Below are positions 1,674-7,712 of a DNA stretch of 44,138 bases, piece after piece. Both the position numbers and the translations under genes were made by a program. Location of the stretch: assembly GCA_011388275.1 (NCBI GenBank), contig DSAB01000039.1, forward strand, positions 1 to 44,138. The letters run 5' to 3'. The notes under the pieces are model-generated. The model made no database searches and was not told where the DNA came from. It saw nothing but the letters and a program-made list of their open reading frames with translations. This DNA comes from a bacterium. GTDB lineage: Bacteria > Zhuqueibacterota > QNDG01 > DSAB01. Numbering within the stretch: the stretch's first letter is position 1; every line of letters starts with the position of its first letter.

Positions 1674-3236
1674 ATGAGCGGCAAAAAGCAGACTCGGAAA
1701 ATATTCGAAAGCAAGAAAAAGAAAGACGAAAAAAGATCGGCTTTCCTGCGTGTACTGGATTCAATCGAGAAGGTGGGCAACAAGCTTCCCCATCCGGCCA
1801 GTCTTTTCGCGATTTTTGTTTTGATCATTATTCTGGTTTCTGATCTGGTCACCCGTTTGCAGGTGACCGCGGTTCACCCGGGAACGGGTGAATTGATTCG
1901 GCCGGTCAGCCTGCTGGCTCCGGATGGATTGAGATGGCTCTATACCAGTCTGGTTGAAAACTTTGTCCTTTTTCCACCTTTAGGGGTTGTACTGGTTGTT
2001 CTGATCGCTATCGGAGTCGCCGAAGGAGCCGGATTGATTTCAGCCCTGCTTCGCCATATGGTGCTGGCCGCTCCAAGGAGGCTGGTTACGGCTGCGGTGA
2101 TCGCAGCGGGCATTTTATCCCATCTGGCATCCAGCGCGGGATATGTATTGCTGGTGCCCCTGGGAGCCATGGTCTTTGTCGCGTTCAAACGGCATCCCAT
2201 GGCCGGGATCGCGGCGGCTTTTTGCGGCGTATCCGGAGGATTCGGAGCGAACTTTTTTATCGGGTCCATCGATCCCATACTGGCCGGACTCAGCGAATCG
2301 GCGGCCCATCTCGTTGATACGGAAATGCACATCAGTCCGACTGTGAATATGTATTTCATGTTCGTTTCATCTTTTTTGCTTATCCTTGTCGGTTCCTGGA
2401 TTACGGAAAAGATCGTTGAGCCCCGGCTCGGCCCGTATGAGGGTGAAGCCGCTGAAGATTTCGAAAACGTTACTCCCGGGGAACGGAAGGGCCTTATCTG
2501 GGCGGGAATTTCAGTCCTGGCCGTTCTGGCTCTTTTTCTGCTGCTGGTTCTGCCTGCCAACGGACTGTTGCGCGATCCGGTAACCGGGTCTGTTTTGCAT
2601 TCGCCCTTCATGACCGGTCTGGTCAGCTTTTTATTTATCTTTTTCTTGGTTCCCGGACTTGTTTACGGGCTTGTCGTGGGAACGATCAGAAACGATCGCG
2701 ATGTGATCAAACACATGACCAATTCCATGAAAGGGCTGGCCGGTTATATCGTGCTGGTCTTTTTCGCCGGTCAATTCGTCTATTGCTTCAAAGAGAGCAA
2801 TATGGGGGTGCTTCTGGCGATCAATGGTGCTGAAATGCTCAAATCCATCGGTCTGACGGGCGTTGGTCTTTTGGTCGCGTTTGTCGTGGTCTCGGCCTTT
2901 ATCAATTTGTTCATGGGCAGCGCTTCGGCCAAATGGGCCATTATGGCGCCGATTTTTGTACCGATGTTTATGTTTGTCGGGTATCATCCCGGCATCACCC
3001 AGGCGGCTTTTCGAATCGGAGACTCCATTACCAACATTATCACACCCATGATGTCCTATTTCGCCCTGATTGTCGCTTTCGCGCAAAAATATGACGAACG
3101 TTATGGAATGGGGACGATCATCGCGACCATGCTGCCTTATACCTTGATTTTCTTTATTTCCTGGTCTCTGCTTCTGGCCGTGTGGATGCTTCTCGGACTT
3201 CCGACCGGACCGGGCGCGCCTATCTTTCTGCAGTAA
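1674..3236 (+). CDS. AbgT-family transporter
   Basis: A 520-residue polytopic inner-membrane protein with about 11-13 hydrophobic segments. The conserved AbgT features are visible: an N-terminal charged tail then EKVGNKLPHP, a GGFGANFFIGSIDPILAGLS segment in the first half, and INLFMGSASAKWAIMAPIFVPM plus GDSITNIITPMM in the second half. The family includes the p-aminobenzoyl-glutamate importer AbgT and the sulfonamide exporter MtrF, and is thought to be ion-coupled. Substrate cannot be assigned from sequence. The N-terminus is unusually lysine-rich (about ten Lys in the first 25 residues). The start has AAGGAG 7 nt upstream. The preceding 279 bases hold no convincing gene or promoter, and a strong terminator follows, so the gene is probably a single transcription unit. 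Confidence 0.9.
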   Translation: MSGKKQTRKIFESKKKKDEKRSAFLRVLDSIEKVGNKLPHPASLFAIFVLIIILVSDLVTRLQVTAVHPGTGELIRPVSLLAPDGLRWLYTSLVENFVLFPPLGVVLVVLIAIGVAEGAGLISALLRHMVLAAPRRLVTAAVIAAGILSHLASSAGYVLLVPLGAMVFVAFKRHPMAGIAAAFCGVSGGFGANFFIGSIDPILAGLSESAAHLVDTEMHISPTVNMYFMFVSSFLLILVGSWITEKIVEPRLGPYEGEAAEDFENVTPGERKGLIWAGISVLAVLALFLLLVLPANGLLRDPVTGSVLHSPFMTGLVSFLFIFFLVPGLVYGLVVGTIRNDRDVIKHMTNSMKGLAGYIVLVFFAGQFVYCFKESNMGVLLAINGAEMLKSIGLTGVGLLVAFVVVSAFINLFMGSASAKWAIMAPIFVPMFMFVGYHPGITQAAFRIGDSITNIITPMMSYFALIVAFAQKYDERYGMGTIIATMLPYTLIFFISWSLLLAVWMLLGLPTGPGAPIFLQ

Positions 3237-3342
3237 TCTTAATTACCGTATTTCCCTCGGACCGCTGAACATCCCAAAGGCTCGCGGGAAATGCCTGAAT
3301 GGTTTTACCATGATGTCAATGTGGGATCCGTTCAAACCCGAA

Positions 3343-3369
3343 AGCCGGCTGAAAGCCGGCTTTTTTTTT
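3343..3369 (+). terminator. Rho-independent terminator after the AbgT transporter
   Basis: AGCCGGCT is repeated with a GAA loop between the copies (3343-3350 and 3354-3361). Because AGCCGGCT is self-complementary, the two copies form a G+C-rich stem followed by nine T residues. This is a classical intrinsic terminator about 110 nt after the transporter stop. Confidence 0.9.
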
Positions 3370-3466: not shown

Positions 3467-3495
3467 TTGACATTTCCCAATGTATTGTGTAGATT
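3467..3495 (+). promoter_or_regulatory. Probable promoter of the sigma/FecR/STN-TonB operon
   Basis: TTGACA (3467-3472), a 17-nt spacer and TAGATT (3490-3495) give a good housekeeping-type match about 75 nt upstream of the sigma-factor start. ECF operons are often self-activated from a different sequence, so a second promoter may exist. Confidence 0.55.
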
Positions 3496-3569: not shown

Positions 3570-4085
3570 ATGGACAAGACAACCGATCAGGAACTGGCGG
3601 CTGCTGTTCGTGATTCCGATCGAAATGCTTTCAGGCTGCTTTACGAGAAATATTACAGGCCATTATATCTATTTCTCTGTCATCGCACCCGTTCCGGTGA
3701 CCTGGCGCAGGATTTTGTCCAGGAGTTGTTTACACGTATCTGGACACATCGGCGGAATATCGATCCTTCTCAGTCTTTGAAAGCCTATCTCTATCGAATC
3801 GCCAACAATCTGGTTATCGACCATTTCCGCAAGAGAAAATCCGAGATGTCCTATCGTGCGAATCTGGATATGAGCCCGTCAGGGAAAAACGCGATCGAGA
3901 CCCAAATAACCGTCATGACGGCGATTGATCATCTGCCGGAAAAGCTGAAATCCGTTTTTACAATGAGCCGGTTCGAGGGATTGACCTATCAGGAGATTGC
4001 CGAAATTTGCCGGATTTCCATCAAGACCGTTGAGAGCCGCATGAGTCAGGCCTTGAAGCGGCTTCGCAGAGAGGTTTCAGCCTGA
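3570..4085 (+). CDS. ECF RNA polymerase sigma factor (FecI/Bacteroidetes type)
   Basis: A 171-residue sigma-70 family protein with only regions 2 and 4, as in ECF sigma factors. Region 2 (about residues 22-95) contains FRLLYEKYYRPLYLFL, the helix around QDFVQELFTRIW and the -10 contacting stretch LKAYLYRIANNLVIDHFRKR. Region 4 (about 115-170) shows LPEKLKSVFTMSRFEGLTYQ and a helix-turn-helix with IAEICRISIKTVESRMSQAL. It should direct RNA polymerase to a small regulon when released from the anti-sigma factor encoded next. The ribosome site is weak (A-rich GAAAAAAGA), but no other start keeps the N-terminus intact. The length is typical of the family. Confidence 0.92.
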   Translation: MDKTTDQELAAAVRDSDRNAFRLLYEKYYRPLYLFLCHRTRSGDLAQDFVQELFTRIWTHRRNIDPSQSLKAYLYRIANNLVIDHFRKRKSEMSYRANLDMSPSGKNAIETQITVMTAIDHLPEKLKSVFTMSRFEGLTYQEIAEICRISIKTVESRMSQALKRLRREVSA

Positions 4086-4181
4086 TGTTCCAGATAAAAA
4101 GGGAGAAATACAGATAGGGACAATTTCGTATCACACGTATATAAGATTGAAGCATGAAACGATAGAAGGGAGATTGAGGAA

Positions 4182-5189
4182 TTGAACCGATCAAGACAAA
4201 TGAAACTGATTTCAAAAGTGCTGGCCGGGGAGGCTTCCGATCGGGAAAAGACGATACTGGAAGCCTGGATAAATGCCTCAACCGGCCACCGGGAACTGTA
4301 CCGCGAAATGCAGTCCACGTGGAGCCTTCTGGAGCCGCCTGAAGTCGAAAACATTCCTTCGGTCGAGGAAGAGTGGAAGAAGCTGGTTAACCGGCTTGAC
4401 TCGATTGCCTTCGAACAGCCGTCTGAACGTCTGTTCGAACGTTTGAGAAAATTTATTGTTTATCGAAGGAATTTGATGAGGCCGGCATGGGCGTTGGCCG
4501 TGGTGATTATCGTCATGGCAGGCCTCTTTCTCCTTCGTGACAGAGGAACTTCGAACGCCTATCAGGAAGTCGTCACTCTGAACGGGCAGAAATCGACGAT
4601 TATTCTCGCCGATGGTTCGCGAGTCACATTGAACAGTGGAAGCCGTCTTCAGTTTGAAAAACCTTTTTTCGGAGAGTGCCGTCAGGTTGTACTTTCTGGA
4701 GAGGCTTATTTCGAAGTCAATCCCGATAAACGACCCTTTATCGTGGAAGCGGGCAACGCCCGCATGACGGTTCTGGGCACTGAATTCAATGTCAAGTTCC
4801 GTGAAGGTGCCACATCGGTCATTGTGAAGAGCGGAATGGTTAAGGTCGAATCGGAGCTGGATAACGTGAATGTTATTCTTCAGAAGGATCAGATGAGCCT
4901 TCTCACGCCTAAAGGACATCCTGAAGAACCCCGGCAGGTCGACGCCGAACATTTACTGGGATGGCTGAGGGGAAAACTGGTTTTCGAAAAGACGTCTCTT
5001 CATGATATCGTCGATGAACTTGTCAGGACCTTTGATGTCTGTATCTTACTTCAATGTGATGAATCAGCGCAACAGACTTTAACCGCCACTTTCGATGAAA
5101 AGGTGTCGATTGAAACCGTTCTTTCCTCGATCTGTCTGGCGGTGGGTGCCGGTTACCGCAAGGAAAATGAAGAGTATATTATATTCTGA
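4182..5189 (+). CDS. FecR-family transmembrane anti-sigma factor
   Basis: A 335-residue protein with the standard FecR layout. A cytoplasmic N-terminal DUF4880-like helix bundle (about 1-60, with DREKTILEAWI) would hold the sigma factor; one membrane helix follows (about 101-118, PAWALAVVIIVMAGLFLL); a periplasmic FecR domain (about 125-230) has the hallmark strands TIILADGSRVTLNSGS and VLSGEAYFEVNPD and the TVLGTEFNVK motif; and a DUF4974 domain ends the protein (about 265-335, LVFEKTSLHDIVDEL). The start is probably TTG 4182, downstream of GAAGGGAG; ATG 4200 is possible but has no ribosome site. It lies 96 nt after the sigma gene and 15 nt before the STN-TonB gene, so the three are likely co-transcribed. 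Confidence 0.92.
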   Translation: MNRSRQMKLISKVLAGEASDREKTILEAWINASTGHRELYREMQSTWSLLEPPEVENIPSVEEEWKKLVNRLDSIAFEQPSERLFERLRKFIVYRRNLMRPAWALAVVIIVMAGLFLLRDRGTSNAYQEVVTLNGQKSTIILADGSRVTLNSGSRLQFEKPFFGECRQVVLSGEAYFEVNPDKRPFIVEAGNARMTVLGTEFNVKFREGATSVIVKSGMVKVESELDNVNVILQKDQMSLLTPKGHPEEPRQVDAEHLLGWLRGKLVFEKTSLHDIVDELVRTFDVCILLQCDESAQQTLTATFDEKVSIETVLSSICLAVGAGYRKENEEYIIF

Positions 5190-5204
5190 AAAAGACAGGG
5201 TGCC

Positions 5205-6323
5205 ATGAAAGTGATTCTGAAAAGATTTATTGGACCGGCTGCGGTTCTGATTCTTGCTGCGGCATACGCGCAGAATCCGGTTTCTGAAAAACCGATCACT
5301 CTTCATGCGGAGAATCAGCCGCTTCGTTCTGTGCTCCAGAAGATTTCCAATCAATCCGACGCATCCTTTATTTTTGCAGACGGGCTCGTGGACGGAAAGA
5401 CGATTTCATGCCGATGGAGTAATGTAAACCTGGATTCGGTGTTGTTTGAAGTGGCGAACAAATCCCGTCTGGCCTATCAGATGCTGCCCGGCCCGTCTGT
5501 CGTGCTGTACCCTCTGCCTTCAACAGATTCAACAGCCTATCGGACGCTGCCGACACGTTCAATGATACCTCCTATACTGCAGCGTAAGATCACGCCGGTT
5601 TATCCACCCCTGGCCCAAAACGAGGGGATTGAAGGCAGTGTTTTAATGAATTTCCTCATCACCGAACAGGGTGATGTGAAGGACATTCAGATTGTGGAAT
5701 CTTCCGGGTATGCCATTCTGGACAGGGCAGCCGCGGCCTTTGCCGAACGTCTCAGATTTGATCCGGCAAGACAGGGAGACGAGCCGGTCGATGTCAGAAT
5801 GTCCTGGGGCCTGAATTTCCATCTGCTGAACCGGGAATATCTGCCCCTTCAATACGTCAGTAAAATCAATGCATTGACAAAGTATCTCGAATACACACCG
5901 GAAGACCGCGATCTGGTGCTCGAACAGTTGTTGAAAATACATATCGATTTCGTCGATTACTACAGTGAGAAACCTCAATTAAACTTCAATCAGTCTATCG
6001 AAAAAGTCATACAGCCCGATATTGTTGAAGCGTGGCACCTCTACTGGGACAAACATCCTCTCCATTTTCTGGTCTTTCATGATTATATTTCGCGGTATCA
6101 ACGGGGAAGCGCTGTGGAGAAGGCGGAAGGTCATCTGTATTATTATGCAAAGAAACAGGTCCGGCGGATTCTTGATATGAGTCAAAACAATCCGGCAAGA
6201 AAAGAGAAAGACAATGTATTCATTTCCGATATCACGGCTTATTTGCAGGATAAGTATTCAGGGAAATCCTGGGTTGATTCAATTAAGGAGGTGAGCGCCG
6301 AACAGTATACTCGTCGAAACTGA
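5205..6323 (+). CDS. Periplasmic STN-TonB C-terminal hybrid protein
   Basis: A 372-residue exported protein with an unusual domain order. After a signal peptide (1-22, ending AYA) comes an STN domain (about 30-95; ITLHAENQPLRSVLQKIS, FIFADGLVDGK, VNLDSVLFEV), the module that in FecA-type receptors contacts FecR. Residues about 122-210 form a TonB C-terminal domain (RKITPVYPPLAQNEGIEGSV, a DVKDIQIVESSGY strand and RLRFDPAR). The last 160 residues are helical, tyrosine-rich and unrecognised. There is no receptor barrel and no obvious TonB membrane anchor beyond the signal sequence. Position directly after FecR suggests that the STN domain signals to it. Whether the signal peptide is cleaved or kept as an anchor cannot be told by eye. 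Confidence 0.8.
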   Translation: MKVILKRFIGPAAVLILAAAYAQNPVSEKPITLHAENQPLRSVLQKISNQSDASFIFADGLVDGKTISCRWSNVNLDSVLFEVANKSRLAYQMLPGPSVVLYPLPSTDSTAYRTLPTRSMIPPILQRKITPVYPPLAQNEGIEGSVLMNFLITEQGDVKDIQIVESSGYAILDRAAAAFAERLRFDPARQGDEPVDVRMSWGLNFHLLNREYLPLQYVSKINALTKYLEYTPEDRDLVLEQLLKIHIDFVDYYSEKPQLNFNQSIEKVIQPDIVEAWHLYWDKHPLHFLVFHDYISRYQRGSAVEKAEGHLYYYAKKQVRRILDMSQNNPARKEKDNVFISDITAYLQDKYSGKSWVDSIKEVSAEQYTRRN

Positions 6324-6455: not shown

Positions 6456-7079
6456 ATGTGTACATTTAAATGGTTTATTACAGGACTGGCTGTTATTCTG
6501 ATGGGCTGTGCAGGAACCCGTCCCGTTCAGGAAAGCGCAGGATTCAATTTTGATTATCAGGGCCATACCTATCATATTCGAAGCATTATCCCCAAATCCA
6601 TGGTAGGTTATAACCTGCTCTTTTTACGGAAGGGTGATTCCGTTGTCAGGAGTGCTATTGATAAAGATCAGAACGGACGGATCGATGAACTGACAGCGGG
6701 AGACTGGACTATGGACCAGGCACAGGCCGTGTATCAGGCGGGTTTGGAAGCCGCCCGATCCCGGCGCGTTTATTATCAAATTCCTCTGAACAGAGTATAC
6801 CGGACTGTCGACGGAAAAAATGAATACATTTTACAAACCTATTCGCTTGCCGTCGGTGAAATATACAATAAATTGCAGGTCATCAACAAGTGGATGAGAC
6901 AGAATCAGGTCGTGGTTCTCGACTTTGATGCTGATGGATTGTTGAATGCATTTGAAGATGGGAAGGGCAGTTTGAATCAATATCAACAGACTTATGAATC
7001 CATTCTGGAAAGAGGATTGAGGGAAGGATTCATCGTCAAAACATCCGCCGGAAAATACGAGGTGGCCGCTCGACGCTGA
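6456..7079 (+). CDS. Lipoprotein with EF-hand-like calcium loops
   Basis: A 207-residue protein with a lipobox (VILMGC, Cys18), so it should be lipid-anchored in the envelope. Two DxDxDG-type loops stand out: residues 69-80 (DKDQNGRIDELT, lacking the usual acidic twelfth position) and 156-167 (DFDADGLLNAFE, a complete EF-hand pattern). The rest is not recognised; a helix-rich middle (TMDQAQAVYQAGLEAARS) separates the loops. AAGGAGG 6 nt before ATG 6456 fixes the start. The gene lies 132 nt after the STN-TonB gene and could belong to the same regulon, but a separate promoter is equally possible. It ends opposite the convergent ferritin-like gene. Confidence 0.75.
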   Translation: MCTFKWFITGLAVILMGCAGTRPVQESAGFNFDYQGHTYHIRSIIPKSMVGYNLLFLRKGDSVVRSAIDKDQNGRIDELTAGDWTMDQAQAVYQAGLEAARSRRVYYQIPLNRVYRTVDGKNEYILQTYSLAVGEIYNKLQVINKWMRQNQVVVLDFDADGLLNAFEDGKGSLNQYQQTYESILERGLREGFIVKTSAGKYEVAARR

Positions 7080-7220: not shown

Positions 7221-7712
7221 TTATTTGAGTATCTTCTTAAAATCTTCCTTCAGCGACTGAAGATCCTCTTCATGCTCCACTTCATCGCTGACAATCTGCA
7301 ATGCCAGATTATAGGTGATTGGATCGATATCCCGAGTTTCCTGCATCATCTTGTGATAGGTCGTAATGGCGCATTGTTCGCCTTTGATGTTCTGATCAAC
7401 GACAGGGACAATATAGGGATCTTCCGGCGGATCGTATCCGCAGTTGGTGAAGGAATACCATTCTTTCGGGGAGAGAACCGGAGTGCCTCCCAGCTGAATG
7501 ATTCGCGTGGTCAGCAGGTCCGCATGACGCAGTTCGTCTGCAGCATGCTCGAGCAATTCAGCCATGACGGCGTCTTTCATGGGTCCTTCAACGACTTTGG
7601 CCCCGATCCAGTACTGATAGTAGGCCAGCCATTCATCGGCATAGGCCTTATTCAGGAGTTCGATGATACGATCCGCATGTTCACCGACCATTTCTCTGCC
7701 TTTTGTACCCAT
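7221..7712 (-). CDS. Dps-like ferritin (DPSL / thioferritin type)
   Basis: A 163-residue four-helix ferritin-like protein. The diiron ligands are visible: Glu27 (ADEW), Glu60 and His63 (ADELRH), Glu112 (GEQC) and Glu144 and His147 (SDEVEHEED), i.e. two ExxH motifs as in bacterioferritin-type ferroxidase sites. Two cysteines, Cys91 and Cys114, sit 23 residues apart before and inside the third helix, resembling the paired cysteines of the DPSL or thioferritin group known from Sulfolobus, Pyrococcus and Bacteroides. Such proteins form 12-subunit cages that use peroxide to oxidise and store iron. AAGGAGG precedes the start on the minus strand. It faces an exported oxidoreductase gene across a shared control region. 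Confidence 0.85.
   Translation of the reverse strand: MGTKGREMVGEHADRIIELLNKAYADEWLAYYQYWIGAKVVEGPMKDAVMAELLEHAADELRHADLLTTRIIQLGGTPVLSPKEWYSFTNCGYDPPEDPYIVPVVDQNIKGEQCAITTYHKMMQETRDIDPITYNLALQIVSDEVEHEEDLQSLKEDFKKILK

Follow-up and report, generated by a model that had tools for sequence, protein, structure and literature searches.

An STN-TonB_C hybrid protein beside a FecI-like sigma factor and FecR: a candidate receptor-free arrangement of cell-surface signalling

Textbook FecI-FecR signalling requires a receptor that carries its own STN domain. The signalling domain of such receptors has the STN fold and binds the STN-containing C-terminal part of a FecR-type protein, as seen in the PupB-PupR structure (PMC7186176), and in the FoxA-FoxR pair the cleaved signalling domain binds the anti-sigma factor before induction (PMC11637429). 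The locus described here lies in a window of 44,138 nucleotides (the whole stretch of DNA that was analysed), and it resembles the FecIRA-type systems (FecA/FecR/FecI, PupB/PupR/PupI and FoxA/FoxR/FoxI) in that an ECF sigma factor, a FecR with an STN-like C terminus and a partner with an N-terminal STN domain are encoded in one cluster. The partner in the window, however, is a small periplasmic protein composed of STN and TonB_C, which lacks a plug, a barrel and a TonB box of its own. The initial annotation had placed such a trio of sigma factor, FecR and plug- and barrel-free STN-TonB hybrid at positions 3570-6323, and both the coordinates and the domains hold.

A FecR-like regulator without a known signalling receptor is also found in Leptospira, where the sigma-FecR pair LIC_12757-LIC_12756 has no known partner receptor extended by an N-terminal signalling domain (PMC12155086). 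A conserved STN-TonB_C adaptor offers one concrete way in which sigma-FecR pairs that have no STN receptor could read STN-less receptors. To our knowledge, no STN-TonB_C protein has been described for the Leptospira pair. In the open-licence full-text literature searched, no description of an STN-TonB_C protein, a FecR-TonB_C protein or a receptor-free FecR module was found, in agreement with the earlier remark that the wiring is undescribed, and a TonB_C-tail lipoprotein can now be added to it as a partner. The parts are known, and their wiring appears to be new.

The sigma factor, FecR and hybrid genes

The first gene (3570-4085, + strand) encodes an ECF sigma factor of 171 aa, which belongs to the FecI-like type as judged by its TIGR02985 (Bacteroidetes family 1 / FecI-like) score of 134.7 bits against a cut-off of 126.4. 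It is followed by a FecR anti-sigma factor of 335 aa with a TTG start (4182-5189, + strand), in which the FecR domain (residues 129-221, E 1e-17) and the FecR_C domain (residues 265-334, E 3e-12) each score above the cut-off, and the DUF4880-like N terminus is weak (18.2 bits vs 25). A hydrophobic segment at about residues 98-117 reads from the sequence as a transmembrane helix, and the protein has the layout of an anti-sigma factor, with an N-terminal anti-sigma region, one transmembrane helix, the FecR domain and an STN-like C-terminal domain. The STN-like character of FecR_C is evident from its hhalign match (95.4%) to the STN parts of STN-TonB_C proteins. The three genes run head to tail on the + strand in the order sigma, FecR, hybrid, separated by gaps of 96 and 15 bases.

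A terminator-like hairpin with a T run is located at 3340-3364, between an AbgT transporter gene (1674-3236) and the sigma gene, and the module may therefore start its own transcript. A promoter-like site upstream of the sigma gene (TTGACA-17-TAGATT, 3467-3495, + strand) is a consensus match alone, of a kind that is not clearly more frequent in the region than expected by chance.

The third gene (5205-6323, + strand) encodes the STN-TonB_C-tail hybrid of 372 aa. It begins with what looks like a conventional signal peptide, with a predicted cleavage site at AAAYA-QN, and the STN domain (residues ~26-107, 5280-5525) starts directly after it; the sequence contains no lipobox, as the first cysteine does not occur before residue 69. 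The TonB C-terminal domain (residues 131-207, 5595-5825) and a helical tail (approximately residues 209-372, 5829-6320) complete the protein, all on the + strand. Pfam detected neither a plug nor a barrel in the 372 aa, hence the STN domain is not part of a TonB-dependent receptor.

The TonB_C assignment passes the curated cut-offs (PF03544 / TIGR01352), with 72.1 bits against 24.6 for Pfam TonB_C on residues 131-207. The Pfam STN model gave no match to the window hybrid at E<=1; it scored above its cut-off in the orthologue L039 (5.5e-8, 32.9 bits), which is 35% identical to the window hybrid, and also in L189 and L192. Furthermore, a profile of six STN parts, the window's included, aligned end to end with the STN domain of FecR-linked receptors at 99.7% probability in hhalign, and an STN domain is thus encoded alongside sigma and FecR in the window. 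An AlphaFold2 model built from two sequences, of modest confidence (mean pLDDT 58.1, with the STN part below 50 in places), contains a beta-alpha-beta-alpha-beta-beta STN part and a TonB-like domain. Its best PDB matches in Foldseek are TonB C-terminal domains, including 6i97_D (E 1.2e-4), which is TonB bound to FoxA, and the TonB_C part resembles the receptor-bound TonB structures 6i97, 2gsk and 2grx. The Pfam score and the model both support the proposed TonB_C fold within residues 122-210.

Two trivial origins of the protein were discarded. An STN part carried over from FecR_C was rejected because receptor STN domains matched it better (99.7% vs 95.4%), and a chance fusion or mis-called stop was rejected because the orthologues L039 and L040 have the identical layout.

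Recurrence beside sigma and FecR in two phyla

Relatives were sought in all 82 genomes returned for the phylum of the window, with mechanical ORFs as gene calls. Full STN-TonB_C-tail proteins are encoded by the window's genome (G000) and by two other genomes of its order (L039 in G004 and L040 in G009), each directly after sigma-FecR. The remaining modules of the phylum are built differently. In G077 (L114), FecR is followed by a 234-aa STN-TonB_C protein without a tail and then by sigma, and in G049 (L053) the order is sigma, FecR, a frameshifted STN-TonB_C gene and a TonB_C-tail lipoprotein. The frameshift (L053:7156-7887) falls inside the TonB_C part and may be a sequencing error or decay. 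In G061, FecR, FecR_C and TonB_C form one protein of 479 aa, and genes for a TonB_C-tail lipoprotein and for sigma come next (L113:2208-4504 and 1659-2207). Contigs end near some of the loci (L113, L191). A contig scan with the window protein alone yielded no relative, and a scan with two hybrids recovered the G004 hybrid (L118, identical in sequence) and the weak TonB-like match L119.

No full-length STN-TonB_C protein was seen in a thin sample of other phyla that came to ~300 genomes, a few from each phylum, Pseudomonadota included. An evenly drawn sample of 396 genomes from a group assigned as Bacteroidota-type by inference (from its many FecR_C genes that are followed by ~1100-aa frames also matching FecR_C) contained two. 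For one of the two, 391 genomes of its class were then searched, which brought the number to seven in all (G437, G740, G968, G1052, G1014, G942 and G1055). The order in these seven genomes is nearly constant, with sigma, FecR, a TonB_C-tail lipoprotein and STN-TonB_C in succession (L166, L165, L189, L190, L191, L192, L193). The exception is G942, where sigma lies 5.4 kb away with other frames intervening; in G740, the start codon of STN-TonB_C is ambiguous.

FecR and sigma adjoin at all 13 loci, which comprise 12 STN-TonB_C proteins and one FecR_C-TonB_C protein in 13 genomes of two phyla, although the searches used the STN-TonB_C protein alone. The check proposed for the go-between idea, whether STN-TonB_C always accompanies FecR, came out in its favour at 12 of 12 loci and at the FecR_C-TonB_C fusion, with a sigma gene beside each, and the idea has also withstood the check on the TonB_C fold. 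The frames are open in 12 of the 13 genomes, the motifs are conserved and the neighbours constant, and two different TonB_C proteins stand side by side in nine of the ten non-hybrid modules. The FecR tree, with 3 label changes for the modules compared to 7.3 in shuffles, is compatible with one origin or with several. Since 13 genomes from two phyla share the arrangement beside sigma and FecR, it is probably a genuine form of cell-surface signalling, and apparently one that has not been described.

Affinities of the TonB C-terminal domain and the tail

The hybrid shares the TonB_C fold and its motifs with TonB energy transducers; however, where the transducers have an inner-membrane anchor and a long linker, it has a predicted cleavable signal peptide, and it groups apart from the TonBs of the same genomes. 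In the TonB_C tree, the hybrids fall among STN-TonB_C and TonB_C-tail proteins, outside the group of those TonBs, although the alignment has few columns (101) and support for the deep split is weak (71/85). Support is moderate (68/93) for a single group of the three hybrids. A protein from G562 with two TonB_C domains has both of them in the TonB group. The phmmer scores of the hybrids are 15-28 bits against TonBs, and 27-79 bits against STN-TonB_C proteins, most tail lipoproteins and the other hybrids. The initial annotation had regarded the TonB_C domain as the energy-transducing partner, a view at odds with the tree, where it lies closest to the TonB_C-tail proteins, most of them lipoproteins, and apart from the TonBs of the inner membrane.

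The tail of the hybrid is mostly helical and aligns with the tails of TonB_C lipoproteins. The reported length of about 160 residues was correct, whereas the label 'unknown' no longer fits a segment that is common to the TonB_C lipoprotein family. In both the hybrid and the TonB_C-tail lipoproteins of the same phylum, TonB_C is followed by this homologous tail. The lipoproteins, by contrast, have no STN domain, most of them have a lipobox and most lack sigma-FecR neighbours. On the simplest reading of the sequences, the window hybrid would be an STN-TonB_C protein and a TonB_C-tail lipoprotein merged around a single TonB_C domain, with the lipid anchor lost. Since the hybrid resembles a merger of two module proteins, its tail is probably a functional part. 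Identification of the tail as BamD was rejected, as it drew on a sub-threshold YfiO match in one relative and on weak Foldseek matches.

TonB_C-tail proteins without STN are widespread in the phylum, many with a lipobox and mostly without a FecR neighbour. A frequent cluster consists of a tail lipoprotein with a BatD-like protein, a TPR protein, an inner-membrane TonB, a serine-rich protein and a FadL-like porin, the Bat-like names being a reading of the sequences. At L059:3-9384 (G047), and similarly at L049, L050, L052, L055-L057 and L060, the tail lipoprotein occurs with a FadL-like porin, a second TonB and a serine-rich protein, and the TPR and BatD-like genes lie upstream. TonB_C-tail lipoproteins are also encoded near STN-less receptors in G017, G021 and G023 (by a Pfam run on two of the three, and by clustering alone in G023).

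A possible adaptor and its alternatives

The genome of the window encodes 10 Plug proteins, and none of them carries an STN domain according to a tailored STN profile run on the receptor frames read at those loci; the single Pfam STN match of this genome, and the only STN found besides that of the hybrid, is in a secretin. Consequently, the FecR of the window has no visible receptor partner except via the hybrid, although an STN receptor could lie in the missing part, since the draft assembly consists of 155 contigs and is 96.5% complete. No receptor was seen adjoining most of the modules, the window's included. One module (G437, L166) does adjoin an STN-less receptor of 994 aa, which is encoded upstream of sigma on the same strand together with a secreted CBM35/beta-helix protein.

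The reading we favour, with chances that we regard as evenly balanced, is FecI-FecR signalling of a receptor-free kind: a periplasmic adaptor would place its STN domain on FecR and its TonB_C domain on STN-less TonB-dependent receptors. The STN domain of the hybrid would bind FecR at the STN-like C terminus of the latter, as in PupB-PupR and FoxA-FoxR, and for this contact the domain content and the analogy to the two pairs argue strongly. The fusion of FecR to TonB_C in G061 would replace the STN contact, which speaks for an action of STN-TonB_C proteins on FecR. The TonB_C domain, in turn, might engage one or several STN-less receptors at their TonB box and thereby replace or compete with the energy-transducing TonB, a contact more weakly suggested by the fold and by a few receptor neighbours. 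Receptor occupancy or uptake activity would then shift the seat of the adaptor on FecR, which would be processed and release the sigma factor. In the split modules, the tail would come with the other TonB_C protein, which is a lipoprotein, probably of the outer membrane, and may keep the adaptor near the receptors. Such an adaptor would let a single switch serve several receptors, and the TonB C-terminal domain would gain a signalling function apart from energy transfer. A wider version is offered tentatively, at somewhat less than an even chance: one soluble or lipoprotein-assisted TonB-like adaptor would read many STN-less receptors at their TonB boxes, and a single FecR-sigma pair would receive the sum of their activities. 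If true, this would constitute a distinct signalling class that is uncoupled from any one receptor.

A serious rival, possible though on balance doubtful, dispenses with receptors: TonB_C would be a protein-protein module that pairs with another TonB_C or with other envelope proteins, the helical tail would be the sensor, and STN would still contact FecR, so that the signal is envelope or lipoprotein status and not TonB-dependent uptake. This is favoured by the separation of the TonB_C subfamily from energy-transducing TonBs, by the abundance in the phylum of tail lipoproteins that adjoin FadL-like porins without sigma/FecR, and by the adjacency of two different TonB_C proteins kept in nine of ten non-hybrid modules. 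The same grouping with tail lipoproteins, most of which adjoin FadL-like porin clusters and not receptors, counts against a relay from receptors. However, the fused hybrids retain one TonB_C domain, so two different TonB_C domains do not have to pair with each other, and STN-less receptors do occur near the tail lipoproteins of G017, G021 and G023 and near the module of G437.

The adaptor proposal also has to be set against a role as a brake, in which STN-TonB_C shields FecR from proteolysis, TonB_C merely titrates receptors or TonB, and loss of the protein switches sigma on. The cleaved FoxA signalling domain binds and protects its anti-sigma factor without inducer (PMC11637429), and the hybrid is exported and soluble as judged by its signal peptide; the parts list, however, overlaps with that of the receptor-free relay, and we consider a brake unlikely. 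Far less probable still is decay, with STN as the remnant of a lost receptor accidentally fused to a TonB_C gene: the frameshift inside the STN-TonB_C gene of G049 would fit, but retention in 13 genomes of two phyla, with 12 open frames, conserved motifs and constant neighbours, largely refutes it.

A lipoprotein-like ORF of 207 aa lies 132 bases downstream of the hybrid on the same strand (6456-7079) and could belong to the operon; Pfam did not match it, and the loci searched contained no relative. Further downstream, on the - strand, a ferritin-like protein of 163 aa (7221-7712) is a possible link to iron. In four Bacteroidota-type genomes, a recurrent similar protein (MKVLFIGGTGNISTSVSK...; NAD epimerase by Pfam in L192) is encoded near the module (L192:8650-9639, L193:5910-6905, L190:13493-14482) or near a TonB_C-tail lipoprotein (L194:1-666). 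Together with the GH9 (L190) and CBM35 (L166) neighbours, this epimerase-like protein hints at sugar metabolism as the regulon.
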